IMG/VR virus record: IMGVR_UViG_3300048879_000251
Location: 1 to 24,427 of that record
Direction: 5' to 3' (one strand)
Origin: a virus
Length of the DNA: 24,427 nt
Part shown: positions 2 to 23,074 of the stretch, piece after piece
Layout: the number at the start of each line of letters is the position of its first letter
Position numbering within the stretch: the first letter of the stretch is position 1
The notes under the pieces: model-generated
Databases searched by the model: none
Seen by the model: only the letters and a program-made list of their open reading frames with translations
What the model was told of the DNA's origin: nothing
Made by a program: the position numbers and the translations under genes

Positions 2-2593
2 AATGTCCCGACAGGGGATCAGATGTATGATTTGCAGCTTGATACCACAAAAGATACGAATTTTGGAGCAGGTCGTCCAGGAATAAAAGATGTTACAATA
101 ACATATGAAAGTTACGGTGGAGCAACAAGAAAAGCTGAGATTAACTGGACGTGTTGGTCACTTGAACAATTAGAAAAATACCAGAAAGGGTCATTTCTTT
201 CAATAGGACGTAATGTTATACTTGACTGGGGATGGGTGAGGTCTGATAAAAGAGCATCAATTAATCTGATTCCGAGAATAGTCTCTAAGAATGGAAACAC
301 TTTAGTTATAAACGAAAAGTTATTTGCACAAGTTGACAAAGAAGAAGAGGCTGGAACTCAGTCTGTATGGGAAAAGTACTCGAGAGATTACTATGGTGAT
401 TGGGCTGGCTTAGTTGGAACTGTAGTAAGTTTTACGTGGACTCAACGAGATGATGGAGGTTACGATTGTAAGACTGATGTATTAGGCAAGGGATCAAATA
501 TTTTTGCCGAAGAGTTAGATCAACCGAAAGATGTTAGTAGCGATATTCTTCCTGTTGATACGTACGATTTTAATGATATGATAAAAGATGTAGAAAAAGA
601 GTTGGATGTAGAAGGAATGAAAGCCGCGATTCAGAGTGGCGCTAAACAAAGCTTAGCTGAAAGAATGAAGTGGTTAGATCTAGAGATATTGACAAAATAT
701 TTTGCTGATGACTTATATGGAGGGATGACTGGAACAGAAGTCTTGGCCTCAAAGGATCAGTGCATATTTGCAATAGTCACGCCAAATGAAGGAGATGAAA
801 GTATAGAGTTGTGGGAAGGGGGAGAAGAAGAAGAAATTGAGCCTGCTGAAGGTGAGGCTAAACCATGGTTTACAAAGATGAAAGATATGTTTACTGATGC
901 AGGATACGAATCACCCGCACGAGCACTTGGCCGTTCAAAAGATTTTACTAATGATATTTGGGTGACATTAGGTTGGCTAGAAGACAATATCATATCATAC
1001 TATGTTCCTTTTGTCGAAGAGAAAGATTCAAAAGTGAGGATAGCTGAATTTAGGTCACTTGTAAGAGAAGATGGTAAATTAAAATCCGTTACGATGAAAA
1101 ATCACAAGCAGCTAGTCACATATGATCCATCTATATTTATACTGCCAGGCCAGTATAATGTAGATTGGTTTGCACCCTTAAAGGATGCAGAATCAGGCAT
1201 GACTCCAAGCCCATATCAACAATTAGCAGAAAAAATTAAGGGTTCTACAAAAATACAATTCCAAGTGGGCGAAGAATGGGATGATAATGACGAGGGCAGA
1301 GGGTATGTTAGAAACATACTTTTTAATTTATCTGAGGTGAAACATGCATTTTCTTTGCCTGGCACATCAATTCAAAGTGCTGTGCTTAGTCTTGTAAATA
1401 GGATAAATTCTGCATTTTTGATAGAGAGTTTTGAAGTTGGTCTGCTGTCTGGGGAGAATAAATCACCAAAAAGGTATGGTATAAGGATTGTGAATGAGGA
1501 CAAAAATAAAGACACCGATCAGAAAAAAGATCCAAAAAATTCTTTTATTTTTGAAAATTATGGATTCAATTCATTAATACATCAAGGGTCACTACAATTA
1601 AGTGCTGCTGTTCCAAATAAAATGGCTATTGTTGCAGGATATTCTAGTACTAGATTTGGTAATACTGACAATGATGATATAATACAAGAATATGTCTTTG
1701 GAGGAATGGCAGATGAGGAAAAGATAAAGGCTAAAGCTGTAGCAGAGTTCTTTGCAAGCGCTGAAAATAGGTCTACAATAGCAGATGCGTATGATAATAA
1801 GAAGAACTCAAAAGGAACTTTTTTAGAAACTTTTGGTGTATTAAACCCATGTGAACAAGGGGAAATAAAAGAGATAGAAGATAAAGGTTTGAGTGGAGAA
1901 TGGAACCATGTAATTCTTGAAAATATTGACAAGGTGGCTGCAAAACCGAGTGAGAAGGCTTTAGAGGCATTTAGTAAAAAGTATGAAGAAGTAGTAACGA
2001 GGTCACATCGTTTAGAAGAGTCTAACAATATAGATGAAGCTGCGGCAGCATTAAATATACTTTCGTATACTAATTTAGGAGGCAAAGGTACTGAAGACAT
2101 CTATAGGTATCCTTATGATGCATCTGGCAAGTTAAGAAAACACTACGTAAGAACACTTCAATTCTGGTTACAGGACAATTATCTATCAAGGATGGTAGGT
2201 GGCTTGGCCTCTGATATGGCATTGCCAATCACGCTTTCGATGACAATTGATGGATGTGGTGGCATCACACCGGGCAATATGTTTAGATTAGCGCATCTTC
2301 CGGAAGTGTATGGACAGCTAAATATCAAAGAGGGTGCAGGACCAAAGACATACTTTCATATGAATAGTGTATCACATGTTATTGATGAAAGTGGCTGGAA
2401 GACAAACATTGAGGGCCAATTAAGTAAGAATGGAGAGGTTTCAGCAGCTGAATTAGAACAAATTTTGAAAGAAAAGTATGGTGATGAATTCACTTTGTCT
2501 GATTTAAGGAAAAAAATAATAGCAGCTATGAATGTTACTACACAGAAGATGTTGGTTCTTGGGCCCGGTCGAGAAGAGGTTGGATCCACATAA
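2..2593 (+). CDS. putative baseplate/tail structural protein (5' end outside window)
   Basis: The reading frame is open to the window edge. Codons for N-V-P-T-G-D-Q precede the first ATG at 23 without a stop, so the gene very probably begins upstream and this is its 3' part of about 860 residues. The N-terminal part holds a WTCWSLEQLEKY...FLSIG...LDWGW segment. The C-terminal part holds PITLSMTIDGCGGITPGN followed by an H-V-I-D-x-S-G-W...IEG segment. I associate both with large baseplate or tail-hub-like proteins of T4-type marine phages, and the C-terminal segment loosely recalls the late-control D/hub fold. There is no signal peptide or membrane segment. An acidic, low-complexity stretch (EEEEIEPAEGEAK) lies near residues 270-285. 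The stop overlaps the next start by one base (TAATG), which suggests translational coupling. The virion role is inferred from resemblance and may be wrong in detail. Confidence 0.5.
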   Translation, partial: NVPTGDQMYDLQLDTTKDTNFGAGRPGIKDVTITYESYGGATRKAEINWTCWSLEQLEKYQKGSFLSIGRNVILDWGWVRSDKRASINLIPRIVSKNGNTLVINEKLFAQVDKEEEAGTQSVWEKYSRDYYGDWAGLVGTVVSFTWTQRDDGGYDCKTDVLGKGSNIFAEELDQPKDVSSDILPVDTYDFNDMIKDVEKELDVEGMKAAIQSGAKQSLAERMKWLDLEILTKYFADDLYGGMTGTEVLASKDQCIFAIVTPNEGDESIELWEGGEEEEIEPAEGEAKPWFTKMKDMFTDAGYESPARALGRSKDFTNDIWVTLGWLEDNIISYYVPFVEEKDSKVRIAEFRSLVREDGKLKSVTMKNHKQLVTYDPSIFILPGQYNVDWFAPLKDAESGMTPSPYQQLAEKIKGSTKIQFQVGEEWDDNDEGRGYVRNILFNLSEVKHAFSLPGTSIQSAVLSLVNRINSAFLIESFEVGLLSGENKSPKRYGIRIVNEDKNKDTDQKKDPKNSFIFENYGFNSLIHQGSLQLSAAVPNKMAIVAGYSSTRFGNTDNDDIIQEYVFGGMADEEKIKAKAVAEFFASAENRSTIADAYDNKKNSKGTFLETFGVLNPCEQGEIKEIEDKGLSGEWNHVILENIDKVAAKPSEKALEAFSKKYEEVVTRSHRLEESNNIDEAAAALNILSYTNLGGKGTEDIYRYPYDASGKLRKHYVRTLQFWLQDNYLSRMVGGLASDMALPITLSMTIDGCGGITPGNMFRLAHLPEVYGQLNIKEGAGPKTYFHMNSVSHVIDESGWKTNIEGQLSKNGEVSAAELEQILKEKYGDEFTLSDLRKKIIAAMNVTTQKMLVLGPGREEVGST

Positions 2594-3183
2594 TGCCATT
2601 AAAAATTGAATTTAAAGAGGGACCATTCATCACAAAAAAGGGTGAGTTTAAATATTCAGACACTAGTATCGGTGTGCGAAGAGATCAAGAATATTTTATA
2701 CTTCGCTTAGAAAGCAAAACCACAGAGTACAGATTAAAATCCAATAATGAACTTATTGTTAGAAAATTTAAGAGTGTGATCGAACAGTATAAACATGCTA
2801 AACCTGGTATCTCTAGAGACATCTATCCAAAAGAAATATTTCCTACAAGTAAGAATTTAAATTTTAAAAAGAAATTTATCAAAAGAATTTTTGCAAAAAA
2901 TGTCATAAGAGAGCGACCTTCTATAGTAGAAGTTGAGTCCATAACAAAAACAAAGTCATATATTTTTGTTACAATTGAGTGGCAAATAGGAGGTACTATT
3001 AAGAGCGCAAAATTATTTAATCAGAAATCTTTATTAAAAGTGAAACGTGTAATGCCGGAGTTATTAATAGAAATACCTCTACTACAGTTACATGAATCAA
3101 AATTTAGTGATGAATTAAAGAATAGGAGACTATTAAGAGCAGATGTTATGAGTCCACAAAGTAATGCTGAGTCTGGTGGGTAA
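2593..3183 (+). CDS. hypothetical protein, 196 aa
   Basis: I do not recognise this protein. It starts in a TAATG overlap with the large structural gene and is probably co-translated with it. It is basic and lysine-rich, with alternating beta-type segments (for example YFILRLES and YIFVTIEWQIGG) and no cysteines, signal peptide or membrane helix. The last residues (about 183-196, DVMSPQSNAESGG) look like a flexible tail. A short AT-rich gap of 42 bases separates it from the polymerase gene that follows. Its place directly after a tail/baseplate-type gene suggests a small virion or assembly protein, but this is only context. Sequence-profile or structure comparison with phage baseplate wedge proteins would be the test. 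Confidence 0.6.
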   Translation: MPLKIEFKEGPFITKKGEFKYSDTSIGVRRDQEYFILRLESKTTEYRLKSNNELIVRKFKSVIEQYKHAKPGISRDIYPKEIFPTSKNLNFKKKFIKRIFAKNVIRERPSIVEVESITKTKSYIFVTIEWQIGGTIKSAKLFNQKSLLKVKRVMPELLIEIPLLQLHESKFSDELKNRRLLRADVMSPQSNAESGG

Positions 3184-3194
3184 ATAATTTTAAA

Positions 3195-3223
3195 TTTTCA
3201 AGTTATAAAATGATATATATAAT
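3195..3223 (+). promoter_or_regulatory. possible promoter before the family A polymerase gene
   Basis: A perfect TATAAT lies at 3218-3223, with a weak TTTTCA at 3195-3200 and a 17-base spacer. The predicted start would fall at or just after the ATG at 3226. This promoter would therefore give a leaderless or 5'-truncated message, unless a phage-specific promoter starts a little earlier. The AT-rich context makes chance matches likely. A near copy of bases 3213-3234 occurs at 15332-15353. Confidence 0.3.
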
Positions 3224-3225
3224 AA

Positions 3226-4533
3226 ATGGTTATAGAAAGTCAAAAAGAGTATCGCTCTTTTATAAAAAATATTACAAAGAAAGATGTCAGTATTGTTTTT
3301 GTTAGAGATGATTTTAGAAATCATCCTGCTGAGAGCGAAGTGTTATTTGCAAGTGTTGCATTTCAAGACAAGAATTATCACATGATGTTCAATCACTCAG
3401 AAGCTATAGAAAAATTAGATTATAGGCTTTTAAGTAGGGCTAAGAGGATATGGACTGATGATTCAAAGCAGGCCTATCATTTGACAAAATTTAAAAATTT
3501 GTATGATGTGAGAGTAATGGCACATGTGCAGGGGATTGTATTAGAGCAAATTACAGAGCCGGGTGTGTGCTTTGGATCAATGTATGAGAGGATAACCTCA
3601 AGTAGAAATGCAAATTTCTTCATCCCAGTTGTGAAACTTATAGAATATGCAGAGGTGAGACTCAAAAAGATACAGGAGGTTTATGACAGATTAGATATAA
3701 GAAAGTATCATTTAAAATATAATAATGCACTAATGGCTTTTGCAAAGGTAGAAGAGGATGGGATTAAAATTAAGAGTAGATCATTTAATGGTGTATTTAA
3801 AGATGACTTTGCGTATTCAAATTATAACATCATCACAGCCACATGCCGTCCTTCAAATACTTTTCGTGGTATTAATCTTGGTGCTTTAAACAAGAAAGAT
3901 GGAACAAGGAAAAATATTAGGTCTAGGTTTGATAAAGGAATCTTAGTTGAGTTTGATTATGATGCGTATCATCTTAGATTGTTGGCAAATATTTTAAAGT
4001 ATAATGTCCCGAGTGATATATCATTGCATCAACACCTCGCAGACACAGTTTACAATACATCATATGAGGAGTCAAAGAGAATATCGTGGCAAATACTGTA
4101 CGGAAATTTACCTTTTGACAAAAAAAAGAATCCATTTTTTGCGGAAATTGAGAAGTTTGCAAATCTTTTGCAAAACTATTATCGTGTAAATAAATGCTTT
4201 AAATCACCTATTTATAAAAAATTGTTTAATATGGAGAGTGTGACTAATGTTAATAAAAATAAATTGCTTAATTATTTTGTTCAATCGTATGAGACAGAAA
4301 GAAATATTGAGACAATCAAGAAAATTTCAAGGTTTATAAAAGGTCGTAGTGCACACATGGTATTATATATGTACGATAGCTTTCTATTCGATCTAGATAG
4401 GACAGAGGGATCCAAAACCATATTGGGTGTAAAAGAAATTTTACAGGATGGTATATACCCAGTAAAGATACATGCAGGTCTAAATTATGACTCCATGCAA
4501 GATATAACGGAGAGGATAAATGAGATTAAGTAA
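3226..4533 (+). CDS. divergent family A (Pol I-like) DNA polymerase with degenerate exonuclease domain
   Basis: This is a 435-residue Pol I-type polymerase. Residues 1-165 resemble a 3'-5' exonuclease fold that has lost its catalytic carboxylates: FVRDD near 25-29 stands where FDTET is expected, and DVRVMAH near 94-100 stands where DTMLES is expected. The polymerase part keeps R208 (Klenow R668), motif A DYDAYHLR with D244 (D705), motif B K284 and Y292 (K758, Y766), N349/Q353 (N845/Q849) and motif C D384 (D882). It departs from the family at H249 (normally Glu710, the steric gate), W288 (Phe762), Y280 (Arg754) and motif C YDS instead of HDE. Both metal-binding aspartates are present, so activity is plausible. 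No 5'-nuclease domain is attached; a separate one lies at 10857-11873. No Shine-Dalgarno precedes the ATG. The gene overlaps the next by 14 bases and sits among virion-type genes, away from the replication block. Confidence 0.85.
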   Translation: MVIESQKEYRSFIKNITKKDVSIVFVRDDFRNHPAESEVLFASVAFQDKNYHMMFNHSEAIEKLDYRLLSRAKRIWTDDSKQAYHLTKFKNLYDVRVMAHVQGIVLEQITEPGVCFGSMYERITSSRNANFFIPVVKLIEYAEVRLKKIQEVYDRLDIRKYHLKYNNALMAFAKVEEDGIKIKSRSFNGVFKDDFAYSNYNIITATCRPSNTFRGINLGALNKKDGTRKNIRSRFDKGILVEFDYDAYHLRLLANILKYNVPSDISLHQHLADTVYNTSYEESKRISWQILYGNLPFDKKKNPFFAEIEKFANLLQNYYRVNKCFKSPIYKKLFNMESVTNVNKNKLLNYFVQSYETERNIETIKKISRFIKGRSAHMVLYMYDSFLFDLDRTEGSKTILGVKEILQDGIYPVKIHAGLNYDSMQDITERINEIK

Positions 4534-6694
4534 GATCATAAGTGATGCAGTAGATGATGCATCATATAAGACTGCGAATGGCATGATTGACTTAAGCGAC
4601 CCTTACCATCACTATCTTGTTGCAGAATCATTAAAAGAGTTTTTAGATCCTGATGTGATTGAAGCTGCTCTATTTGGTGAAAAAGAAGATGATCAGGATA
4701 AAAGTTTTCCAGCAGTAAAGGTGGAAACTGGAAACGTTTCATCGTTTGATACAGAAGATGCTAGGAAGAAAGCTATCGATAACGGAACTCACGCGGAGGT
4801 TGGAAGTGCTAAGGCAAAGAAAGCTCAAGCAAATGCTGGTGGAAAAAAACAAGATGCAGAAACTCCAGAGGCAGAGCCTGATACAGCTATAGATTTGTCT
4901 CAAGATGAAACAGATGCACTGGTTGCAGAGGTAGATAATGAGATTAGTGTTGCTCAGAAAATTGATAGAACAAAACAGGCAAATCTTAAAAAGGAATTGC
5001 ATCCTGTACTTAAAAGTATTTCTAAGAAAATTGAAAAATTAATAGACGCGGGTAAAAAAGATGAGGCTAAAGCGTTAGCTCAAAAACTAGTGGATGATTT
5101 AGGTTTACAGCAAGCATTATATCTACAAAAATTTTCTGATGGTAAGCGCTGGGGTGAAAAGGAAGGAAAGATTTATGTAGGGCCGAATGGTTTAAAACTT
5201 ACTGGTGCAAAAACAGGCCGGTCTGTAGGGCAGGCAGACATTATAAACATATTAGCTAAAGCAGATGTAAAAATACCTGTGAAGCCTAAAGGCATAAGTA
5301 GAACTGCAATGTCGATACAACATACGACAAGAGACAGAATAGAAGGCACGGTTACGTCACGCACGACAGATAAGGATAAATTAATTAAAGAAATAAAAAT
5401 TGGTGGTCGAACAATAACATTTATTGCTGACCCGGAGAGCGACACTTATGAATTAGATTTATTAAAATTAAATAACATTGAAGATGGTGAAATTTCTTTT
5501 GTAGATATTGGAGATACATCAACAGTAGCAGGAAGAGAGGTGGCAATAACTACAATAGCGGATGGCATAAACGATATGTTTGTCGAGATGGAAGATTACC
5601 TTGATGACAGCCCAGGTAGTATAGGTATTGCTGACAGGTGCGAAATCATTTTAGATAAAATAAAGGATCCAGCGCTCTCTAAAGAAGAGCATCAAAAATT
5701 AATGTTAGAAATGTTAGCATTAACAAAAGAAGCACTGCCAGATTCAGAGGTAAATGAATTTAGAGACATGTCAGCTTATATTGCAGAATCACTTGAGGCT
5801 ATGAGGCATTTAAAGAATGGACGTGAAACACTCGTGCCTGCATCAGGAAATTTTAAAACTGCAGACGTGATTCCTCTTATTGATGGTAATCCACAGCCAA
5901 CGTTAGTGACAATAAATGGTGTACAAAGTGAATTAAAAGGTGTAAAAGGAATAGCTGGTACATCAGTTAAACTTTCAGGAGGTGCACCATCATCATTACC
6001 TGCAAAGCATAAAAATACTATTTATGGTAAATTAGATAAACCCATAACTGTGAAGGGGAAAATAACAAGTGACACAAAGGAAGTAGTATCACAGGTGCTT
6101 TCATATTATCCTGATTTGTTTGGTGTGAAAGGAAATAAAAAGAAGTCAATTGCCGCTGTTCCTAAAGTATCAATGGACCCTATTCCGCCAGGAGACTATT
6201 ATGAATCATCAAGTGCTGATCTTTGGGATACATTCTTTGAATACTATCCAGAATTAAGTGGTTCCGGAGTACAAGATGATATGATGGCGTATATCACTGG
6301 TAAGGTAGAAACTCAGTTAGCTAGGATTGAAAAATCTGATCCGGATCGTATGGAAAAGGCTGAATCTAAAGATGCAAGAGAACAAAGAATGAAGTTGTAT
6401 CACATAAGTCAATATATCGCAGGAATGATATCAAATCATCCAGAGCATGGCATGCGACAGCAAGCATTTGCAAATTCAGATTATAGAGCAGGAAAAAAAG
6501 ATGGAAAAACGGTATTCACAATAAAAGAAGCAGACGGAATTGAAACATTATCTTATGTTGGTTTTGCACCTGATCAGGGATATACAATATCAGCAGATGG
6601 ACATATCTCTCCAACAAATACGTATTCATCTCATTTAAAACATGTGAATCCTGCATTAAAGGTGTTGGCTAAGTATGAGAAAAAAAGTGATTAA
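4520..6694 (+). CDS. hypothetical protein, 724 aa, possibly virion-associated
   Basis: I do not recognise this large protein. Visible regions are an N-terminal acidic segment (1-75), an Ala/Lys/Glu-rich low-complexity and probably coiled region (about 80-200, with KKIEKLIDAGKKDEAKALAQKL), a central mixed alpha/beta part with a helix-rich stretch near 340-430, and a beta-rich part near 440-530 containing TLVTINGVQSELKG and SVKLSGGAPSS. A C-terminal helical region follows. It has no signal peptide, membrane segment or cysteine pair motif. The gene overlaps the upstream polymerase by 14 bases and the next small gene by 8-20 bases, so it belongs to the same transcript. The ITINGV...SVKLSGG segment could be a degenerate nuclease-type beta sheet (D/E-x-K-like), but I cannot assign catalytic residues. 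Size and position suggest an internal or structural virion protein; this is inference. Confidence 0.55.
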   Translation: MRLSKIISDAVDDASYKTANGMIDLSDPYHHYLVAESLKEFLDPDVIEAALFGEKEDDQDKSFPAVKVETGNVSSFDTEDARKKAIDNGTHAEVGSAKAKKAQANAGGKKQDAETPEAEPDTAIDLSQDETDALVAEVDNEISVAQKIDRTKQANLKKELHPVLKSISKKIEKLIDAGKKDEAKALAQKLVDDLGLQQALYLQKFSDGKRWGEKEGKIYVGPNGLKLTGAKTGRSVGQADIINILAKADVKIPVKPKGISRTAMSIQHTTRDRIEGTVTSRTTDKDKLIKEIKIGGRTITFIADPESDTYELDLLKLNNIEDGEISFVDIGDTSTVAGREVAITTIADGINDMFVEMEDYLDDSPGSIGIADRCEIILDKIKDPALSKEEHQKLMLEMLALTKEALPDSEVNEFRDMSAYIAESLEAMRHLKNGRETLVPASGNFKTADVIPLIDGNPQPTLVTINGVQSELKGVKGIAGTSVKLSGGAPSSLPAKHKNTIYGKLDKPITVKGKITSDTKEVVSQVLSYYPDLFGVKGNKKKSIAAVPKVSMDPIPPGDYYESSSADLWDTFFEYYPELSGSGVQDDMMAYITGKVETQLARIEKSDPDRMEKAESKDAREQRMKLYHISQYIAGMISNHPEHGMRQQAFANSDYRAGKKDGKTVFTIKEADGIETLSYVGFAPDQGYTISADGHISPTNTYSSHLKHVNPALKVLAKYEKKSD

Positions 6695-6938
6695 ATTAAA
6701 AGATATATTAATGGAGGCTAAGTGGGACAATATAGCCGGCAGAGTTTGGGATCATATCATATCCAATGAGGTACATGTGACGCAGGAGAAGCTGAAGGAA
6801 ATATCAGATATAGTAGCTAGGAAAGGTAAGATAAGTAAGGATGGTTTGTATTCTGCAGTCATGAGAGTTGGTGAGGAAAAGAACTGGTTTACTAAATTTA
6901 TTATGTACCCTGATGAAGGAGGGGCGGGAGTTTTCTAA
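6675..6938 (+). CDS. small hypothetical protein with capsid-targeting-like leader
   Basis: This 75-87 residue protein overlaps the end of the upstream gene. Two starts are possible: ATG at 6675 (MRKKVIKLKDILMEA) or GTG at 6687, which gives (M)IKLKDILMEA. The second matches the N-terminus of the next gene (MIKLKDLLREE) almost exactly, so I favour 6687, although neither has a strong Shine-Dalgarno. In T4, internal proteins carry an N-terminal peptide of about 10 residues (MKTYQEFIAE) that is cut by the prohead protease gp21 after (I/L)-x-E. Here L-M-E followed by A has that form. The remaining body (KWDNIAGRVWDHI onwards) is unrecognised. Its stop overlaps the next ATG (TAATG). Delivery into the capsid is inference. 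Confidence 0.6.
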   Translation: MRKKVIKLKDILMEAKWDNIAGRVWDHIISNEVHVTQEKLKEISDIVARKGKISKDGLYSAVMRVGEEKNWFTKFIMYPDEGGAGVF

Positions 6939-7327
6939 TGATTAAATTAAAAGATTTATTAAGAGAAGAATTAACTGATAATGATATAAAGGTCGGTGAT
7001 GCTTATAAAAATTCAACAGCTCGAGGATTTGAGGTTACTTTTGTATACGAAAAAGAATCAAGAGGCGGAGCTACTACTATAGATTATCAATTTAAGCCAC
7101 AACACGGCCTGCACGGATTCGTGGGTGTTGGAGTTGGACCTGCTAAAGGTGTTGATGGTTGGGGCAAAGACAAAAAGATTAAGGTCACCTCTAAGATGAA
7201 AAAGGAAATGATTAAGACTTTACAAGCTGCTATGAAAAGCAAATATAAGAATTCAGAAGAGGTAGATATATTAATAAGGAATGGCTTACGATTATCTAAC
7301 GTATTAAGCTGGGTTAAGAGATTGTAA
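6938..7327 (+). CDS. small hypothetical protein with capsid-targeting-like leader
   Basis: This 129-residue protein starts in a TAATG overlap with the previous gene. Its first residues, MIKLKDLLREELTDN, repeat the leader of the preceding protein. The coding DNA repeats too: TGATTAAATTAAAAGAT occurs at 6688-6704 and 6939-6955. L-R-E followed by E fits the (I/L)-x-E cleavage rule of T4 gp21. The rest is a mixed alpha/beta domain with no motif I recognise; it includes FEVTFVYEKESRGGATTI, a Gly-rich LHGFVGVGVGPAKG stretch near 60-75 and a basic C-terminal half. The gene ends in another TAATG, which opens an eight-codon mini-ORF starting with the same leader. A packaged internal protein injected with the DNA is a reasonable guess, unproven. 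Confidence 0.65.
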   Translation: MIKLKDLLREELTDNDIKVGDAYKNSTARGFEVTFVYEKESRGGATTIDYQFKPQHGLHGFVGVGVGPAKGVDGWGKDKKIKVTSKMKKEMIKTLQAAMKSKYKNSEEVDILIRNGLRLSNVLSWVKRL

Positions 7328-7353
7328 TGATTAAGTTTAAAGGATTAATATAA
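7327..7353 (+). CDS. eight-codon leader-remnant mini-ORF (MIKFKGLI)
   Basis: ATG at 7327 overlaps the previous stop (TAATG). It reads M-I-K-F-K-G-L-I and then TAA, which itself overlaps the next ATG at 7353 (TAATG). The peptide and DNA are a decayed copy of the MIKLKDLL leader that opens the two genes before it. It could be a vestige of a lost third gene, or a coupling peptide that carries ribosomes from one gene to the next. Translation is not shown. Confidence 0.3.
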   Translation: MIKFKGLI

Positions 7354-7742
7354 TGAAAACACAATTATTATGTACATTTTGTACAATAGACACTTTTGAT
7401 GATACAATTTCTATTATTAAGTTAGCGTCAACTATTGTATTTAATAAGATTTACGTTTTTGAGAATGTAGAAGAACCGCAGTCATTGATATGTACATACA
7501 ATGTGGAGAAGACAGAAGATTTTCATCAAAATATAAAGACAATGGCAATCCATAGAAAGAAGGAGACTAATACACTATACACAATTAATGCTTTGAATGA
7601 AGCAATAAGAAAAGATAATGATGGTGAATTAGATAAGACATTCTCGTTAGAATGGTCGCAATATCAGAATAGTTTGCTTCTGACGAATGATCAGGGGCTT
7701 AATGTGGTAAAAACAAAATTATACAAAATAGTTGATGTATAA
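7353..7742 (+). CDS. hypothetical protein, 129 aa
   Basis: No known domain is recognised. The protein begins MKTQLLCTFCTID with two nearby cysteines, continues with a hydrophobic beta segment (IVFNKIYVFENV) and a conserved-looking core, HRKKETNTLYTINALNEAI (about residues 68-86), and ends with a beta-type SLLLTNDQGLNVVKTKLYKIV. The overall impression is a compact single-domain soluble protein. I have a sense that this core is common in T4-type marine phages as a protein of unknown role, but I cannot confirm that here. It starts in a TAATG overlap with the mini-ORF and is the last tightly coupled gene of the virion-side cluster. A 32-base gap with a TATAATATTTATAG-type AT tract precedes the next gene. 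Confidence 0.65.
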   Translation: MKTQLLCTFCTIDTFDDTISIIKLASTIVFNKIYVFENVEEPQSLICTYNVEKTEDFHQNIKTMAIHRKKETNTLYTINALNEAIRKDNDGELDKTFSLEWSQYQNSLLLTNDQGLNVVKTKLYKIVDV

Positions 7743-7774
7743 TATTTATAGATGTAACATAATGGAGTATAGAA

Positions 7775-8296
7775 ATGTTTATCAACAAAAATAAAAAATC
7801 AAATTGGATGCCGGCAAAGGGATCTTTTAGAACCATCCAGGAAAATTTTGTCAATAATGCTGGAAATGATGTATTGAAATCAATCTTGCATGAAGACTCA
7901 GATGATGATCATGAAGCGAAGATGTTTGCATTGAATCCGGGAAAGGATAAGGGAAAAGTAAGACCTGAATTAATAAAGATGGGCAAAGATATCGTAATGA
8001 TAAGCAAGAAAGCAAAAGGTGATGTAGATAAAGCACAGAAGGATATTGGCTCATATCTTAAGAGAAAAGGATTCAAAGGTGACGGACAAAATGCTATATG
8101 GCCAATGAAAGGCGCACAGTGGTTTCAAGATGACGAATACCAAGGAGAACTGGAGTCAGGCCAGCTAGCTGATATGACAGTTACTAAGTCTATATTCATC
8201 GATATTTCTACAGGAAAAGTAACAGATAACTGGTCACCTGGAGCTTACGGAATATATAGGCCGTCCAAATCAGAAAAGTCAGGTTGGGAAATGTAA
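7775..8296 (+). CDS. hypothetical protein, 173 aa
   Basis: This protein is not recognised. It starts at ATG after a weak purine-rich site (ATGGAGTATAGAA). The first 45 residues are polar and lack predicted structure, and include LKSILHED, an (I/L)-x-E-type site that a T4-like prohead protease could cut. The middle is lysine-rich and helical (about 62-95, ending KDIGSYLKRKGFKGDG). The C-terminal third has beta strands and aromatics (AIWPMKGAQWFQDDEYQG, SIFIDISTGKVTDNW, GAYGIYRP). It has no cysteines, signal peptide or membrane segment. It is the last gene before a 680-base non-coding region. Its place after the leader-bearing small proteins suggests a virion-associated or injected protein, but nothing in the sequence proves this. 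Confidence 0.6.
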   Translation: MFINKNKKSNWMPAKGSFRTIQENFVNNAGNDVLKSILHEDSDDDHEAKMFALNPGKDKGKVRPELIKMGKDIVMISKKAKGDVDKAQKDIGSYLKRKGFKGDGQNAIWPMKGAQWFQDDEYQGELESGQLADMTVTKSIFIDISTGKVTDNWSPGAYGIYRPSKSEKSGWEM

Positions 8297-8313
8297 AACA
8301 ATTAAAAAATGTT

Positions 8314-8332
8314 ATATAAAAATCACACTTTG
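8314..8332 (+). repeat. promoter-like repeat, copy 1
   Basis: ATATAAAAATCACACTTTG at 8314-8332 recurs at 8894-8913 as ATATAAAAAAACACACTTTG, differing only in the A-run/T junction (one indel and one substitution). In both copies a TATATT begins 17 bases after the final G (8349 and 8930). The two copies flank the putative non-coding RNA. Confidence 0.55.
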
Positions 8333-8354
8333 GGAATTTAATTATATATATATT
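8324..8354 (+). promoter_or_regulatory. putative promoter for the structured RNA
   Basis: CACACTTTGG supplies a -35-like box (ACTTTG at 8327-8332). TATATT at 8349-8354 follows after a 16-base spacer. Transcription from here would begin at about 8360, at the base of the first stable hairpin of the RNA (8359-8376). The identical geometry before the SSB gene supports a real promoter, either sigma70-like or phage-specific. The tract between is almost all A/T, so the exact -10 is uncertain. Confidence 0.4.
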
Positions 8355-8358
8355 TTAT

Positions 8359-8810
8359 TACGCGAGAAATTGCGTAGTTTATTGAAAATTGAGATTTTGA
8401 AAAGTACCCGGGATTGATCGTCCTGGTACGGGATTGGTCGAATAATGGTTTTCTGAAGAAGACTATAAGACAATCTAACGTAATGTCGTGGTGACTGACC
8501 ACTTGCCGAATGTGGTGAGTAGGTGAAGGTCTTGTAGACATACGATACGTAATGTACTTCTAGAAAAACTAAAAGAACGCGATTCTTTGACTCTGTTATG
8601 GGTAAGGGTAACACCGAAATCCCATCTTGTGGCCGAATTAATCTAAACTCAGAGAGATAAGGCAATGACAAACAGGTTGTGCTGGCTTTAACGATAGTTA
8701 ACCGCTATTTAGAAGAACTAAGGTAACTCTTAGGTGTTAGGTACAGGGTTCGACAAATCTGAGCTAGAAGTTGTAGGTGATCGCAAGTCCTGCATCCCCA
8801 AAAATTTCCA
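8359..8810 (+). ncRNA. candidate large structured non-coding RNA, class unknown
   Basis: This part of the 680-base gap has no plausible gene. By hand count, 8401-8800 has about 170 G/C in 400 bases (about 42%), more than its AT-rich flanks. Many local hairpins are visible: TACGC/GCGTA (8359-8376), GTACC-CGG/CC-T-GGTAC (8405-8430), GTGGT/ACCAC with loop GACTG (8488-8502), CTCTG/CAGAG (8591-8595 with 8650-8654) enclosing ATGGG/CCCAT (8598-8602 with 8621-8625) and a small GGT/ACC hairpin, TTAAC/GTTAA with loop GATA (8688-8701), CTAAG/CTTAG (8718-8733) and TGTAGG/CCTGCA (8772-8794). It begins where a promoter would start and ends before a strong terminator. I could not match it to tmRNA, RNase P, a tRNA, or group I or II introns. 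Large phage RNAs such as GOLLD or ROOL are possible relatives, untested. Confidence 0.6.
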
Positions 8811-8815
8811 ATTTT

Positions 8816-8884
8816 AAAAAGGCCCCGGAATTTTTATTGTATACACTGTATGAATATCTTATAATCCCCCTCCGGGGTCTTTTA
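8816..8884 (+). terminator. intrinsic terminator with long loop
   Basis: GGCCCCGGA (8821-8829) pairs with TCCGGGGTC (8871-8879) over 9 bp with one G-U. It is flanked by AAAAA (8816-8820) and TTTT (8880-8883), so it could act in either direction. The 41-base loop is unusually long and contains a promoter-like sequence. An alternative small hairpin, CCCC/GGGG, exists at 8866-8877. This element probably ends the upstream transcript and the structured RNA. Confidence 0.7.
8837..8865 (+). promoter_or_regulatory. sigma70-like promoter inside the terminator loop
   Basis: TTGTAT (8837-8842), a 17-base spacer and a perfect TATAAT (8860-8865) form the best sigma70-type promoter in the window. It lies wholly within the loop of the terminator hairpin. 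Its start point would be near 8872, within the 3' arm, and it would read into the SSB gene at 8980. The transcript would keep only one arm, so it would escape that terminator. Confidence 0.5.
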
Positions 8885-8893
8885 TTAAAAAAT

Positions 8894-8935
8894 ATATAAA
8901 AAAACACACTTTGACATTAATGAGAAATATATATT
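8894..8935 (+). promoter_or_regulatory. second promoter-like repeat before the SSB gene
   Basis: This is copy 2 of the element at 8314-8332 (8894-8913). Here it creates a perfect TTGACA at 8911-8916. TATATT (8930-8935) is at the same distance as in copy 1, and TATTAT (8932-8937) is an alternative -10. A leader of about 40 bases follows, with an AAAGAGGA ribosome site before the ATG at 8980. It is probably an early promoter for the replication genes. Confidence 0.45.
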
Positions 8936-8979
8936 ATTGTAATTAATTAACAATTGAACATTAAAGAGGAAAATAAATA

Positions 8980-9738
8980 ATGGATCTTAACGTAATTAAA
9001 TCAAGGTTATCGCAACTTCAACAATCAAATACAAGAACGTCTAGCTTATGGAAGCCTAGTCCGGGAAGAACACAAATTCGAATTGTGCCTTATAAATTTA
9101 ATAAGGACAATCCGTTTATTGAGTTGTATTTTCATTATGATATGGGTGAGAGGAATTATCTTTCTCCAATTTCATTCGGCCGACCTGATCCGATTGAAGA
9201 GTTTGCAACAAAACTAAAAACATCAGGGAATAAAGAAGATTATAAACTTGGAAGAAAAATCGAATCTAAGATGCGTACATATGCGCCAATCATAGTAAGA
9301 GGAGAAGAATCTGAAGGAGTAAAATTCTGGGGATTTGGAAAGATGGTCTATCAAGAACTTCTTAGTGTAATAGCAGATCCAGACTATGGAGATATTACAG
9401 ACCCTGTAAGTGGAAGAGATATTGTTGTAGATTTTAAGACTAGTGAAGAGACTGGAAGAGCATTTCCAAGTACGACTATTCGTGTAAAGCCAAATCAGAC
9501 ACCTGTAACAGAAAATACAGATGTTATGCGTACTGTTAAAGAAACACAAAAGGAAATTACTGAAATCTATCAGGAGCTTCCTTACGATGAATTAAAGAGC
9601 GCACTTGAATCTTGGCTTGATCAAGATAATGAAGTAGGAAAAGATGATCTTAATCTAGCTTCGGTTAAAAATGATTCGTCTCCTAGAGAAAAAAAAGAAG
9701 ACGTTTCGGCAGCATTTGACGAGCTATTTAATAACTAA
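8980..9738 (+). CDS. gp32-like single-stranded DNA-binding protein
   Basis: This protein binds ssDNA at the phage fork and during recombination. Evidence is an N-terminal region followed by a core beginning SLWKPSPGRTQIRIVPYKFN (about residues 22-41), typical of gp32-type SSBs of T4-like marine phages. A basic/aromatic core follows (YFHYDMG, VKFWGFGKMVYQEL), and then an acidic C-terminal tail ending DVSAAFDELFNN, the kind of tail that recruits helicase, polymerase and recombinase. At 252 residues it is a little shorter than T4 gp32 (301), and it has no cysteine at all, so the zinc site of T4 gp32 is missing. The start is firm: AAAGAGGA lies 9-16 bases upstream. Two promoter-like elements precede it, in keeping with high expression. 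It is followed by uvsX, the usual partner, after a 22-base gap. Confidence 0.8.
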   Translation: MDLNVIKSRLSQLQQSNTRTSSLWKPSPGRTQIRIVPYKFNKDNPFIELYFHYDMGERNYLSPISFGRPDPIEEFATKLKTSGNKEDYKLGRKIESKMRTYAPIIVRGEESEGVKFWGFGKMVYQELLSVIADPDYGDITDPVSGRDIVVDFKTSEETGRAFPSTTIRVKPNQTPVTENTDVMRTVKETQKEITEIYQELPYDELKSALESWLDQDNEVGKDDLNLASVKNDSSPREKKEDVSAAFDELFNN

Positions 9739-15369: not shown

Positions 15370-15804
15370 ATGCACGATTGTTATATTGCTAGTGGTTGGT
15401 TCAATGAGAATCAAGCTAGAGATTTAGAAAATATTAAAAAAGCACTTGATGATGTAGGATGTAGATATTTTTCACCAAAAGATGAAATCATTGCTAAACC
15501 TGACGCTTCAAAGGAAGAACAGGAAATGGTTTTTAAGGGAAATGTCGATGCTATCACAGATGGTGATTTTGTTGTATGTAATACAAGAGACAAAGATCTT
15601 GGTACAATATTTGAAGCTGGCTTTGCTTACGCATCAGGGGTACCAATAATCTATTATGCTGAAGGCTTGAAGGGGAATTTTAATCTTATGCTTTCACGTA
15701 GTGGTAGAGCTGTTGCAACAAATGTTGAAGAATTAAAAGATCAGGTCGCACAAATAATGGAAAATCCAGATTATGAAAAAGAATATGTCGGTCTCATTGA
15801 GTGA
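15370..15804 (+). CDS. nucleoside 2-deoxyribosyltransferase-like enzyme
   Basis: This family moves the deoxyribose of a deoxynucleoside (or deoxynucleotide, in the RCL branch) between bases or to water. The N-terminus DCYIASGWFNENQ has the usual first strand, and SPKDEI with a following acidic loop is family-like. The signature segment DKDLGTIFEAGFAYASG places the catalytic glutamate at E82 and the conserved Asp at D76. The C-terminal part, LMLSRSGRAVATNVEEL, also fits. The length of 144 is normal. A clear AAAAGGAG ribosome site and a promoter precede it. It overlaps the HD-phosphatase gene by 20-32 bases. The pairing suggests a route dNMP to deoxynucleoside to free base or exchanged base: nucleotide salvage, or removal of an unwanted nucleotide. 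The substrate cannot be told from the sequence. Confidence 0.8.
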   Translation: MHDCYIASGWFNENQARDLENIKKALDDVGCRYFSPKDEIIAKPDASKEEQEMVFKGNVDAITDGDFVVCNTRDKDLGTIFEAGFAYASGVPIIYYAEGLKGNFNLMLSRSGRAVATNVEELKDQVAQIMENPDYEKEYVGLIE

Positions 15805-16309
15805 TTTTGTAGATAATATCTACACTTTAAAAGCGCTTACAAGATACAATAATAAATTTAAAATAATAAATGAATCAGTAGCTGAACACTCCTTTTTTGT
15901 TGCAGTGTTAGTACTCAAAATGTATGACGATTATAAATTTGATCTAGGGAAAGCATTAAAAATGGCACTAGTACACGACATTCCAGAATTACATTTATCA
16001 GATGTAACACATGATGTTAAGCGTAATTTTCCAAATTTAGCTAAAGAAGTATTGAAAGCAGAATATTCCATTATGAGACATAAGTATCCTAATTGGCTAA
16101 GTGCTTTTATGGAATTTGAATCAGAGGAAACACCTGAGTCACTCGTTGTAAAGATGGCTGATAATCTTAGCTGTGTGCAATATGCGACAGCAGAAATAGC
16201 ACTTGGTAATCGAGGATATATGAAGGAAGTTGTAAAGGATGCAGGAAAACGTGTTATGAAGTCTGAAATAAAATTAAAAAAATGGAGAAGAAAAGATGCC
16301 AAAAAATAA
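15773..16309 (+). CDS. HD-domain 5'-deoxynucleotidase (YfbR-like)
   Basis: A metal-dependent phosphohydrolase expected to convert dNMPs to deoxynucleosides. Counting from the first ATG, metal ligands are H39 (SVAEHS), H68-D69 (ALVHDIPEL) and D130 (KMADNLS). E72 and R24 match E. coli YfbR E72 and R18, and the R-to-H spacing is 15 in both. It is all-helical, 178 residues against 199 in YfbR. The start is uncertain: ATG at 15773 or ATG at 15785 (MSVSLSDF). Both lie inside the upstream gene and neither has a convincing Shine-Dalgarno, so it is probably translationally coupled. The C-terminus is strongly basic (KLKKWRRKDAKK). It overlaps thyX by 14 bases. Phage HD enzymes are also known that remove dATP or other specific dNTPs (DatZ type), so the substrate is open. 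Confidence 0.83.
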   Translation: MKKNMSVSLSDFVDNIYTLKALTRYNNKFKIINESVAEHSFFVAVLVLKMYDDYKFDLGKALKMALVHDIPELHLSDVTHDVKRNFPNLAKEVLKAEYSIMRHKYPNWLSAFMEFESEETPESLVVKMADNLSCVQYATAEIALGNRGYMKEVVKDAGKRVMKSEIKLKKWRRKDAKK

Positions 16310-17255
16310 TGACTTAGATGCTGTACAACTACCAACAAGCTTGTGTTTTAATGAAGATCTAAGGACTAATTTTGTTGATCATTTAGATGCCATAAAAGTT
16401 AAGTTAGTAAGTTGTCCACCAATAGAAGAATTAAGAAACTACATACCAGATTTTTGTACAGCCACATGGGCGCAAGATCCTTTTCATTCTGATGATTTGA
16501 GTGATTATGAAAAGGATAAGATGATATGGATGCTTTTTGATGGAAAATTATTACCTACTGCTTTTGAGACAATTAATTGTACTTTTACAATTAATGGTAT
16601 TGATACACAATTTGTTACACACTTAATAAGACATAGAACATTTAGTTTTTCAGCTCAATGTACTGGGGATCGTTCACAGCGTAATGATACAGCTCTTGTT
16701 CCTTCTGCAATTATAAATTCTGAGGAATATTTTGATCGTTATACGAAAATTGTTGATGAGGCAAAACAACTTTACGCTGATATGGTTGATACAAAAAAGA
16801 TTTCTATTATGGATGCTCGGCATATACTCCCAAAGTGTTTAAGCACATTTTATTGGGCACGTGGCAATGTTCGTGATGTAATGGGATTTATCAAGACAAG
16901 AATTGATAAGCAGATTCAGCCTGCTGAGGATAATGTTGTTGCATATTATATGTGGCTAGAACTAGTTAGACAATATCCAATGATAGTTGATTGTATCGAC
17001 ATCCACACACCAGCAAGATATTATATTTCAACAGCACGTACAGGAACTGGAACAAATCTCTATTTTCCTGATGAGGATTCTGATCAATTTGAGTATAATG
17101 AATTGGATTTTCTGTATCAGGCAAGGCGTGATGAATTAAATGGTACTGAAGGCGGACGAAATACTTTTGTGGAAATAATTAAGTCTATAGATGAAGAAAT
17201 TGAAGACTTACGACGTCAAGCTTACGAACGATATGATTTTTTGGGGATAAAATAA
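16296..17255 (+). CDS. thyX: FAD-dependent thymidylate synthase ThyX
   Basis: Makes dTMP from dUMP using methylene-THF, FAD and NADPH. The motif lies at residues 112-129 as RHRTFSFSAQCTGDRSQR: the RHR is intact, but the position seven residues later, normally Ser, is Cys122, and a short insertion (TGD) precedes the following Arg. Later family features are an F-x-W-x-x-N-V-R-D-V-like helix (TFYWARGNVRDVMGFIKTRID) and a Q-P-A-E-D-type nucleotide-binding segment. At 319 residues it is longer than typical ThyX (about 220-260), with an extra charged helical tail from about 255. The start follows a GGAGAAGAAAAG ribosome site, and the stop overlaps the epimerase ATG (TAATG). It fits with the dCMP deaminase and dUTPase-like genes downstream, which would supply dUMP. 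Confidence 0.9.
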   Translation: MPKNNDLDAVQLPTSLCFNEDLRTNFVDHLDAIKVKLVSCPPIEELRNYIPDFCTATWAQDPFHSDDLSDYEKDKMIWMLFDGKLLPTAFETINCTFTINGIDTQFVTHLIRHRTFSFSAQCTGDRSQRNDTALVPSAIINSEEYFDRYTKIVDEAKQLYADMVDTKKISIMDARHILPKCLSTFYWARGNVRDVMGFIKTRIDKQIQPAEDNVVAYYMWLELVRQYPMIVDCIDIHTPARYYISTARTGTGTNLYFPDEDSDQFEYNELDFLYQARRDELNGTEGGRNTFVEIIKSIDEEIEDLRRQAYERYDFLGIK

Positions 17256-18253
17256 TGAGAGTTTTAGTTACAGGTGAAAAGGGCTTTATAGCATCTAATT
17301 TGTCTAAGTCTTTACTTAAGCACGATATTGAATTTATAAAATTAAATAATTACACATGGTCTAGAATGACATATCCTGCTAAGGTTAATAGTAATGATGA
17401 AATGTGTGTACATAGAAATAATATCAAAGAATGGGCGGCCGCATTTGAATTACTTAAAATTGATATGGTTATACACAATGCTGCTGTTGTCGGTACAGAC
17501 GTAGTTGCCTTAGATCCAAATGAAGCAACGCTATCTAATCTAACAGGAACATATAATATTGTTCAAGCTGCAAACCAGGTTGATATTCCTGTTGTTTATC
17601 TTGGCACAACTGTGATTTATGACACAAAAGTATATCAAGACGGGTTAATCTATGAAAATTCGCTTACAGGACCAACAACATTTTATGGTAATTTAAAATT
17701 ATGGGCAGAACAATATGTTATCGAGAATGCAAAAAACTGGATAGTTCTTAGGCCCTTATTTGCATATGGTGGCGTAGGTGACATGAATTCATTGATGGCA
17801 AAAACTTTTTATGCTAGTATGATTCCAAAGAAGATTGATATGTTTTTAGATCCTACCAAATACAAAGACTACTTACATGTAGAGGATTTTTGTGATGCTG
17901 TTGCGTTAGCTTGTAAAATGAAACTATTCGGTAAAGATTATAATATTGCTGCAGAAACGCCTGTAATTACAAGCGAGATTGTAGATTTAATGTCAAAAAT
18001 CTCAGATGAGGATTTAAAATTACTTATTGACTGGAAGCCAGAAACAGATTACTTAGGTAACCATAGGCTTTCAACTGCAAAGTTCAGGGGTGACACAGCA
18101 TGGATGCCAAAAATTACTCTAGAAGATGGTTTACGTAGATCATATGACAGTATCATAAAAAACTTTAAAAATCCAGAAAAAATAGCATACAATCCCTTAG
18201 TGTACTTAGATGAGGCAAAAGATAAGGGTGTTGACCTTACAAAATTTTATTAA
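17255..18253 (+). CDS. NAD(P)-dependent sugar-nucleotide epimerase/dehydratase (extended SDR)
   Basis: A Rossmann-fold enzyme of the extended short-chain dehydrogenase family. The nucleotide-binding motif at the N-terminus is VTGEKGFIASNL, that is G7-x-x-G10-x-x-A13, with Ala replacing the last Gly. HNAAVVGTD near 74-82 is the usual NNAG/HxAA segment. The catalytic triad region is LGTTVIYD (117-123) with Y144-x-x-x-K148 (YGNLK), and VLRPLFAYG is the substrate-side strand. The sugar is not identifiable; relatives act on UDP-, GDP- or dTDP-sugars. It starts in a TAATG overlap with thyX, so it is made with the nucleotide enzymes rather than with virion genes. Possible uses are remodelling host surface sugars or supplying a sugar for DNA modification; both are guesses. 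The 60 bases after it contain a weak CTTTAC/GTAAAG hairpin. Confidence 0.85.
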   Translation: MRVLVTGEKGFIASNLSKSLLKHDIEFIKLNNYTWSRMTYPAKVNSNDEMCVHRNNIKEWAAAFELLKIDMVIHNAAVVGTDVVALDPNEATLSNLTGTYNIVQAANQVDIPVVYLGTTVIYDTKVYQDGLIYENSLTGPTTFYGNLKLWAEQYVIENAKNWIVLRPLFAYGGVGDMNSLMAKTFYASMIPKKIDMFLDPTKYKDYLHVEDFCDAVALACKMKLFGKDYNIAAETPVITSEIVDLMSKISDEDLKLLIDWKPETDYLGNHRLSTAKFRGDTAWMPKITLEDGLRRSYDSIIKNFKNPEKIAYNPLVYLDEAKDKGVDLTKFY

Positions 18254-18313
18254 AAAAAACCTTTACTTGTATAGGTAAAGTGTATTAAATTCTAATATCA
18301 ACTCAGGATTTAA

Positions 18314-21300
18314 ATGTCATTAAAGAGTATCATACCACCAACACAATTTACAGGGCTACACGCGCATACATCATTTAGCACATTTGATGGCTTAGGTTAC
18401 CCAAAAGATCATATTGATTTTATCACAAGTGAAGAACAGGGGATGGATTCATGGGCGTTAACTGATCACGGTCAAGGATCCGGATTAGCACACGCACGCC
18501 AGTATTCAGAAGTATTAAAAAAGAAAGGTCTTAATTATAGACAACTTCATGGTGTTGAATTTTATTTTGTCCCTTCACTAAAAACTTGGAAGGATCAATA
18601 TAATACACATCGTGAAGCAGTGCAAGCTGAAAAGAATGCTAAAAAACAAGAAAAGCTAGCAAAGACGTCTGTTTTTATAGATGCTGAAAAGGAAGTAGAA
18701 TCAGGTGGCCTTGTATTAGAGAACGAACTTGAAACAAAAGGATCCTTAAAAGGAAAACCAGCTTGGAAGAGATATTATCATTTAGTTGTTGTTGCAAAAA
18801 ACAAGCAAGGATTAGCTAATCTATTCACACTTGTTAAAAAATCTTATAAGGATGGATTTTATAGATTTCCTCGTATTGATTTTGAAATGCTTAAAGAGCA
18901 TGGTGACGGTCTAGTTGTATCAACAGCATGTGTTGGAGGCTTAGCATCAGGTATAATTTACAATGAGTTTCAGGATTTAACTTTTAATCAATTCCATCCT
19001 GATTTACTAAATGATTCCGTCAAATATAATACAATTATGAATCGTTTAGAAAATATGACAGATTATTTTGTTGATTGTGTAGGACAGGAGAACTTCTTTT
19101 TAGAGTTACAATTTAACCAATTGACAGCGCAACAAATGACTAATCGTATGTTACTTGATTTATCACGAAAAACTGGAGTAAAACTTATATCAACTGCTGA
19201 TTCTCATTTCCCATCACCAGATAAATGGGAAGCACGTGAGTTATATAAGAAAATAGGCTGGTTTAGCAATGATCCAGCAAAGATGATATTACCAAAGAAA
19301 GAAGAATTAAAATGTCTACTTTATCCTAAGAATGCACAACAAATGTGGGATGGATTTGTAGATAATTATAATGAGTATGATTTCTATAAGGGTTACGAAA
19401 ATGATGTAAAAGATTCAATTAATAGGACACATGATATTGCATGGGATATGTGCGAAGATGTGTGGATAGATACACAGGCTAAATTACCTGTATTTGGGTC
19501 AACTGACAAGCCTGCATTTAATATGCTTGTTGAGCTAGTCAAAGAGAAATTACTTCTAGAAAAACCGCAAAAGCAACAACAGTATATTGAAAGAGCAAAG
19601 GAAGAACTATCAGATATAAAGTTCCTTGGACATGAATCATATTTCATAGCAATGTATAAGATATTTGAGAAGGCACGCGAAAAAACCCTTTTTGGCCCAG
19701 GAAGAGGATCCGGATCTGGGAGCATAGTAAATTACTTACTTGGTATTACACAAATTGATCCTCTTCCTTATGGTCTTTTATGGTCACGATTTTTAGGCAG
19801 GCATCGTGTTTCATGGCCAGATATAGATACAGACGCAGGTGACAGAGATGTATTAATTGATGCAGCACGTGAGTTATTTGGTAATGATGCAGTTATACCG
19901 GTTTCGAATTTTAATACTCTCAAACTTAAGTCACTCATAAAAGACATATCAAAATTTTATGGTGTGCCATTTCATGAGGTAAATAAATTATCTAATGGAT
20001 TACAAGAAGAAGTTATGCCTCATGCAAGAGATGAAGATGAAGAAAAATCAGTATTTGTTTTAAAACACGCAGACTGCATGAAATATTCAAAAAAGTATAA
20101 CGATTTTATGACTCAGTATCCTGATGTTGAACGTCATGTTGAAACCTTATTCATGGAGAATAGGAGTATTGGTCGTCATGCTGGAGGTGTTATAGTAGCA
20201 ACTGAACAGGATATTCAAACTTGTATGCCACTTATTAGTGTAAGAGGAGAGCTTCAGACACCGTGGACTGAAGGAATGAATTTTCGTCACCTTGAAGACA
20301 ACGGATTTTTAAAGTTTGATTTCTTGGGATTGACGCTTCTTAAGGATGTTGAGAATTGTATTAAAAGAATTTTGATCAAAGAAGGAAATACTGCTCCTAG
20401 TTTTTTAGAGATAAGAGATTACTTTGATAAGCATTTAAATTGTCGTTATAATAAGCAAGATGATAAAAAAGTTTGGAAACATACTTATGAAGACGGGCGT
20501 TTAACAGCAGTATTCCAATTTACAGCTGATGGTGCACGTAGGTTTTGCTTAGATGCAAAGCCAAAGGATATCGAGACACTTGGTGCCTTAACAGCAATAT
20601 ACAGACCTGGGCCTCTTAAGGCTAATGTTCACAGGAAATTTGTTAATGCAAAAAAGAATGCTCATAAGATAAAATATGATCATCCAGTTATCAAAGAAGT
20701 ATTAGGACCGACTTTTAATTTTGTTATCTTTCAAGAACAATTTATGTTATTAGCACAAAAACTTGCTGGATTCTCACCGGGTGAGTCTGATAAGTTGAGA
20801 AAAACTCTGGTTAAGAAGTCTCTAGATACCTTAGATGGTAAGGCTTCTGAACGTGAGATAGCAAAAGAAAAATTTATAAGTGGTGCTAAAAAATTACATG
20901 GCATTAATGAAAAAATCACGACAGAATTATGGGAAACCATCGAGGCATTTTCAGTTTATGGATTTAATAAATCACATGCAATTGCATATGCAATAGATTC
21001 TTATTACTCAGCATGGCTGCACACTTATCATGAAAAGGAATGGTTAGCAACAGTTCTGCAATCTGAAAATAATAATCCAAAAGGATTATCAAAGACAATA
21101 GGTGAAGTCAAATCTTACGGTTATCATTTTGTTGATGTAGATATAAATTATTCAGGTAAAGAGTGGGAGTATTCTGAAGAAGTTAACGCATTTGTTCCAC
21201 CTCTTTCATCGATAAAAGGTGTAGGCAAGATAGCTATGGATGAATTAACAGCACTCAGGCCTTTTGATAACTTAAAAGGATTTCTTTACGATGATGAGGG

Positions 21301-22906: not shown

Positions 22907-22912
22907 GTTATT

Positions 22913-23074
22913 ATGAAATCACGAATAGAAGTTATTAAAGAGCTTGTTAAGAAGTATCCTGATAACCGCCAATTAGGTAATATAGTAAGACAGTATATGA
23001 TGGAAGATTATTGGAAACCGCTTGATAAAACGAATCCAGAAAGTAAGTGGTTAAAGAGGTTGAATGAGATATGA
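22913..23074 (+). CDS. small hypothetical protein, 53 aa
   Basis: ATG at 22913 has an excellent AAGGAG nine bases upstream. It encodes MKSRIEVIKELVKKYPDNRQ and continues to a TGA that overlaps the next ATG (ATGA at 23071). The protein is charged and helical, with an aromatic segment YMMEDYWKPLD near 28-38. It has no known domain. The ribosome site, the snug fit between genes and the overlapping stop/start make it very likely a real gene. Its function is unknown; small regulators or host-takeover proteins are common at such positions. Confidence 0.7.
   Translation: MKSRIEVIKELVKKYPDNRQLGNIVRQYMMEDYWKPLDKTNPESKWLKRLNEI

Follow-up and report, generated by a model that had tools for sequence, protein, structure and literature searches.

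We found that positions 8357-8884 of the analysed window, a 24,427-nt stretch from a 24.4-kb IMG/VR virus record, are non-coding and structured on the plus strand, and that the RNA specified there is a relative of manA, an Rfam family without known function, in nested and roughly doubled form. It is a variant rather than a plain member of the family, because the simple P7 hairpin of manA is replaced by a helix, H, enclosing a whole second core. In our preferred reading, to which we assign a probability of roughly 0.7, the locus encodes a phage RNA of about 0.45-0.53 kb that is free-standing and probably acts in trans; this "manA-in-manA" carries two recognition cores of the manA type. The features of the locus are as follows.

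8324-8356, plus strand: promoter-like site of the RNA, CACACTTTGGG ... TATATATATAT, resembling the site before the SSB gene (sequence pattern)
8359-8376, plus strand: P0, 5' hairpin TACGCGAGAAATTGCGTA, variable in sequence among relatives (predicted fold, relatives)
8385-8398, plus strand: outermost A/U-rich helix, 5' strand, pairing with 8800-8815 (predicted fold; complementary flanks in relatives, outside the covariation count)
8404-8429, plus strand: outer P1 hairpin (compensatory changes in 4/8 pairs)
8430-8433, plus strand: 5' strand of the closing stem, GGGA, pairing with 8795-8798 (matched changes)
8435-8472, plus strand: outer P2, GAAUAA/UAAGA core motif around a hairpin (covariation helices 3-4; cross-hits of models R1 and R2)
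8478-8550, plus strand: outer P3 with the GUGGUG hairpin at 8484-8496 (13/14 pairs compensatory)
8556-8563, plus strand: 5' strand of helix H, which encloses the inner core and pairs with 8764-8771 (8 bp, 6/8 compensatory, 97.9% of cells paired)
8581-8759, plus strand: inner manA core (covariation helices 9-18; model R2)
8581-8584/8756-8759 and 8590-8596/8743-8749, plus strand: closing helices of the inner core
8598-8625, 8632-8663 and 8666-8739, plus strand: inner P1', P2' and P3'
8673-8684, 8686-8715 and 8718-8733, plus strand: P4', P5' and P6', within P3'
8597-8798, plus strand: Rfam manA match, spanning the inner core, outer P9 and the 3' strand of the closing stem (Rfam scan, 49.2 bits)
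8764-8771, plus strand: 3' strand of helix H (unguided fold, covariation)
8772-8794, plus strand: P9 hairpin (covariation helix 19)
8795-8798, plus strand: 3' strand of the closing stem, UCCC (matched changes)
8817-8884, plus strand: intrinsic terminator, 13-bp stem AAAAGGCCCCGGA/TCCGGGGTCTTTT (8817-8829 with 8871-8883) and T-run (sequence)
8905-8940, plus strand: promoter-like site of the SSB gene itself, CACACTTTGACA ... TATATATTATTG (TTGACA-18-TATTGT, 10/12)
8980-9738, plus strand: gp32-like single-stranded DNA-binding protein (SSB), downstream neighbour, outside the RNA (PF08804, E 2e-12)

The RNA lies in a 683-nt gap with no credible gene, between an ORF ending at 8296 and the SSB gene starting at 8980, and the GC content of the RNA block within this gap reaches 0.44, compared with 0.24-0.30 on both flanks. 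Folding of 8359-8890 gave -142.2 kcal/mol for the plus strand against a shuffle mean of -127.5 (z -2.49, better than 99 of 100 shuffles), and no excess over shuffles for the minus strand (z -0.15). The only sizeable ORFs inside the block are antisense (109 and 67 aa). Neither had a match in a PHROG search, an equally long open frame at this position was absent from all of the relatives compared, and the length differences among relatives are not multiples of three; coding on either strand was rejected on these grounds. An earlier note, made from the sequence alone, had described a gene-free, higher-GC structured segment upstream of the SSB gene and had named a protein homologue of an internal ORF as refuting it; the segment was confirmed, and the PHROG search gave no such homologue. 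The extent given there, 8359-8810, stood as to the promoter-like start and the terminator behind it, and is corrected to about 8357-8884 for the transcript-like unit.

The Rfam scan proposed in the earlier note found no family in the window at the curated cut-offs. A permissive scan, however, matched manA (RF01745) over the full model to the plus strand (E 1.5e-11), with a score that falls short of the gathering cut-off of 55.2 bits and is middling because the match combines the inner core with outer elements, P9 and the 3' strand. Several relatives of the window RNA pass this cut-off (73.4, 73.0, 67.9, 67.7, 67.6, 62.2 and 56.7 bits), and the 3' half of the RNA therefore belongs with manA. 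The 5' half, 8400-8572, lies outside the match, and the outer half of the window alone gave a weak manA match (10.7 bits, E 1.3), so that the case for homology of the outer lobe is built on the relatives and the covariance models R1 and R2 described below; in two relatives, L058 and L281, Rfam manA weakly matches the outer domain (19.4 and 28.4 bits). GOLLD, ROOL and other large RNAs had no Rfam match in 8290-8990 at E up to 10, RNase P and group I and II introns had none in the block, and neither ARAGORN nor Rfam found a tRNA or tmRNA there; all of these identities were rejected. The "unknown class" of the earlier note thus stood with regard to tRNA, tmRNA, RNase P and introns, and gave way where the 3' half matches manA, below the cut-off. 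Its suggestion of a GOLLD- or ROOL-like RNA failed, and nothing was found in support of a host-RNA mimic or a packaged RNA.

Relatives were gathered from SSB relatives first, and then by scanning viral contigs with two short patterns, one per half. Profile searches over all loci gave more than 150 relatives in viral contigs, with 157 cases of both halves at constant spacing; a half was found alone only where a contig ends or in the two divergent sequences L015 and L081. All of the nested sequences are from metagenomic contigs; a nucleotide search found no annotated or isolated phage with the nested RNA, and none of the 93 pattern hits in bacterial and archaeal genomes was confirmed by the profile search. 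Many SSB relatives have no such RNA at the position upstream of the SSB gene. We aligned 41 non-redundant sequences, folded the alignment unguided, completed the fold by hand and then counted the pairs. Across 99 proposed pairs, 97.8% of 4051 cells are paired, and 65 of the pairs show two-sided compensatory changes; these counts are sensitive to how the sequences are aligned, and the structure was itself derived from them, points that the controls (0 of 500 shuffles reached any measure, and slid structures gave at most 28 pairs with two-sided changes) remedy in part.

By this comparison, the sequences are shown to share a single predicted nested fold, in which an outer manA-like RNA, with P1, the GGGA/UCCC closing stem, P2, the GUGGUG hairpin and P9 in that order, carries a second, fuller manA core where the canonical P7 hairpin sits. 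The nesting rests on helix H, in which six of the eight pairs covary, and on the closing stem, where a matched GC to AU change is seen in 4/4 sequences: GGAA on the 5' side occurs with UUCC on the 3' side in exactly the same four sequences, although these may reflect fewer independent events. By eye, L081 has GGGG with CCCC, a further AU to GC change. In manA, a closing stem of the GGGAG/CUCCC type surrounds P2, P3, P7 and P9; its counterpart in the window is the GGGA/UCCC pairing, which brings the 3' end together with the 5' half of the outer fold, and the inner core has no such strand. A pseudoknot between the halves was first suspected, and the whole-alignment fold placed this pairing as nested. 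Covariation across homologues, the test proposed beforehand for the candidate, was thus very strong, and the multibranch element placed at 8591-8654 gave way to two multibranch folds, one within the other, of which the outer is closed by 8430-8433/8795-8798 and the inner by 8581-8596/8743-8759. A box, GTTTTTTGACAATTTGGAA, follows the variable P0 in the relatives and at 8377-8400 of the window; it is conserved and single-stranded-looking, and possibly pairs with AAATTTCCAAA 3' of the RNA.

We compared the two lobes by covariance models, R1 for the outer module and R2 for the inner P2'-P4' module (8630-8685 and relatives, 55 positions). R2 recovered 20 of 20 canonical manA loci as top hits, at E 4e-7 to 6e-4 with nothing else below 0.6, where E-values from these home-made models are rough. 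The best non-self hits of R1 include in-register matches to the inner module of the window (8630-8687, E 0.0065), of L004 and of L198, with weaker matches in L066 and L180, and R2 matched the outer module in register in several relatives. The direct comparison of outer and inner modules gave weak E-values of about 0.006 to 0.7, and R1 had no significant match to canonical manA. The GAAUAA/UAAGG core around a hairpin, followed by a GUGGUG-type hairpin, was thus recovered both in the R2 hits and in the cross-hits between the modules. As judged from these sequence matches, the inner core is manA, while the outer lobe can less firmly be taken as a diverged manA paralogue, with P1, closing stem, P2, GUGGUG hairpin and P9 in the manA order.

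The window RNA is preceded by a TTTG...TATATATA promoter-like site, and the pattern TTTTG-N-TATATATA was found before 35 of 40 relatives, as compared with 12% in shuffled sequence. An intrinsic terminator follows in 72 deduplicated loci, usually 12-20 nt past the RNA, and none was detected in L101, L254, L190 and L098. The earlier expectation of a promoter before and a strong terminator after the RNA is accordingly borne out at the level of sequence. The sequence of the terminator stem is freely variable, and most relatives conserve the stem-loop TTTTTAGTTTCCAC...AAACTTAAAAA inside it; the interior differs in the window, L002 and L003. A TTGTAT-17-TATAAT stretch in the terminator loop of the window was set aside, since it is not conserved in most relatives. 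In two loci, L101 and L254, the nested manA lies ahead of an Hsp20 gene, and canonical manA also occurs by Hsp20-like genes.

Canonical manA was re-examined in loci picked by an exact 16-base pattern, and the fractions describe that subset. A terminator was found within 75 nt after 29 of 91 loci, against 0.3% in shuffles, and a sigma-70-type promoter lies close upstream of about half. Canonical manA also occurs in tRNA clusters and beside metabolic genes: in S-SSM7 the match runs to 151563 and a tRNA starts at 151564, and in S-CREM1 the annotated manA sits between two tRNA genes, with hardly any space to either. The promoter-like site and the terminator of the nested RNA together suggest that these phage RNAs may be free-standing rather than gene switches. 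A recurrent hairpin, AGACCTAAGATGCAACTC...GAGTCGGGCAGATGGTCT, with a T-run lies just 3' of canonical manA in L404, L390, L428, L432, L451, L474 and others; it is a terminator with a strongly conserved interior, and when L404 and L474 were scanned at gathering cut-offs it matched no Rfam family.

These data bear on whether the RNA might instead be a cis-regulatory leader or riboswitch of the SSB gene, which would sense a ligand or SSB and thereby decide formation of the terminator at 8817-8884. The Rfam type of manA is cis-regulatory, and the 2010 description (PMC2864571) places manA in 5' UTRs. Furthermore, the SSB start lies within 450 nt in 59 of 76 nested loci, as expected of a leader, and in 17 of 86 canonical loci a gp32-type SSB gene (PF08804) starts shortly, mostly 31-46 nt, past manA (e.g. 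L385, L400, L408 and L433). The frequent position of canonical manA 30-50 nt before an ORF without a terminator also speaks against a free-standing RNA, as do the four nested loci without a detected terminator and the consideration that a conditional terminator could work without a competing antiterminator helix. However, the complementarity of the RNA body to the terminator arm was 0.794 for its own arm, 0.783 for swapped arms and 0.808 for shuffled RNA, and an attenuator was rejected, since the own arm did no better than either control. The SSB gene has its own promoter-like site, and RNA-less SSB relatives keep a similar leader with such a site directly upstream. Moreover, SSB lies 0.5-1.0 kb away in 10 of the 76 loci, with a methyltransferase gene between in four and other ORFs in some, and was not seen within 1.5 kb in seven. 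We thus regard the leader as unlikely, and favour a free-standing unit because of the terminators, the promoter-like sites, the negative antiterminator test, the SSB leader kept without the RNA, and the inserted genes or absent SSB.

A replication or packaging RNA, such as a primer transcript or a packaged RNA near replication genes, would fit the location before the SSB, RecA, exonuclease, helicase and DNA polymerase III alpha genes; this is nonetheless very improbable, given the canonical manA copies in tRNA clusters and by metabolic genes and the many SSB relatives lacking the RNA at this position. The least probable reading is a tandem pair of independent manA aptamers instead of one nested fold. 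The two halves do carry related modules about 160-173 nt apart, but through helix H the end of the first half is paired with a strand past the inner core, the closing strand of the first half has its partner at the 3' end of the entire RNA, and the halves occur together in the 157 paired hits, with few lone hits. Under the free-standing reading, transcription would start at the promoter just upstream of the RNA and stop at its own terminator, as the flanking sequence signals support. From its anatomy, the RNA may act in trans as a bivalent molecule during infection, and its two GAAUAA/UAAGG cores might bind the same kind of partner, either a protein or a small molecule. The usual neighbour of the RNA is a gp32-type SSB gene, as is the case for canonical manA in many cyanophages, and DNA replication or early-gene translation, or a process close to them, would therefore be the first role to consider. 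More tentatively, it is conceivable that marine-phage manA RNAs in general are widespread free-standing infection RNAs with a single conserved core, not riboswitches, and that a core-in-core insertion here made a bivalent RNA binding two copies of a partner, possibly SSB or a translation component.

Canonical manA, as in P-SSM2 and P-SSM4, shares with the nested RNA P1, the closing stem, P2 with GAAUAA/UAAGG, the GUGGUG-type hairpin, P5/P6, P9 and the 3' closing strand, as well as a promoter-like site directly upstream and a frequent location near gp32/SSB, talC, thyX or hsp20-type genes. In contrast, the nested RNA is about 400 nt long rather than about 190, has a second core at the P7 position inside helix H, closes that core by a different helix, scores below the Rfam cut-off in the window, and has a terminator close behind it in most relatives. 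The phage T4 gene 32 autogenous translational operator, a small pseudoknot in the mRNA leader, is likewise a structured RNA ahead of a gp32-type gene, whereas the window RNA exceeds it many-fold in size and has a terminator and a promoter-like site between itself and SSB. GOLLD and ROOL are also large phage-associated structured RNAs. The wcaG RNA (RF01761), which the 2010 description (PMC2864571) reports together with manA, is another orphan cyanophage RNA, and has no match in the window.

Since 2010, manA has counted as an orphan riboswitch candidate; literature searches turned up no functional study. The nested form provides an independent and very rich covariation data set for manA, points to the part present twice as its essential core, and, in two different phage groups, ties the family to gp32-type SSB genes. 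The terminators, the promoter-like sites of the RNAs and the tRNA neighbours also raise the question "free-standing RNA or leader" for manA itself.

Finally, we surveyed the other genes of the window. Eight ORFs lie upstream of the RNA at 23-8296, and those tested against Pfam and PHROG (856, 196, 435, 724, 129, 129 and 173 aa) had no match. The replication and nucleotide-metabolism genes include, besides the gp32-type SSB, a RecA-like recombinase, a 5'-3' exonuclease, a DnaB-type helicase, a class II ribonucleotide reductase and DNA polymerase III alpha. Among the window genes examined, none was recognised as being of purZ type. A dense nucleotide-metabolism block at 15370-24114 encodes a nucleoside deoxyribosyltransferase, a ThyX-like protein, a dUTPase-like protein, a dCMP deaminase, an HD-domain deoxynucleotidase (best PHROG match, dATP triphosphohydrolase) and an NAD-dependent epimerase family protein, which could hint at a modified base in the phage DNA.
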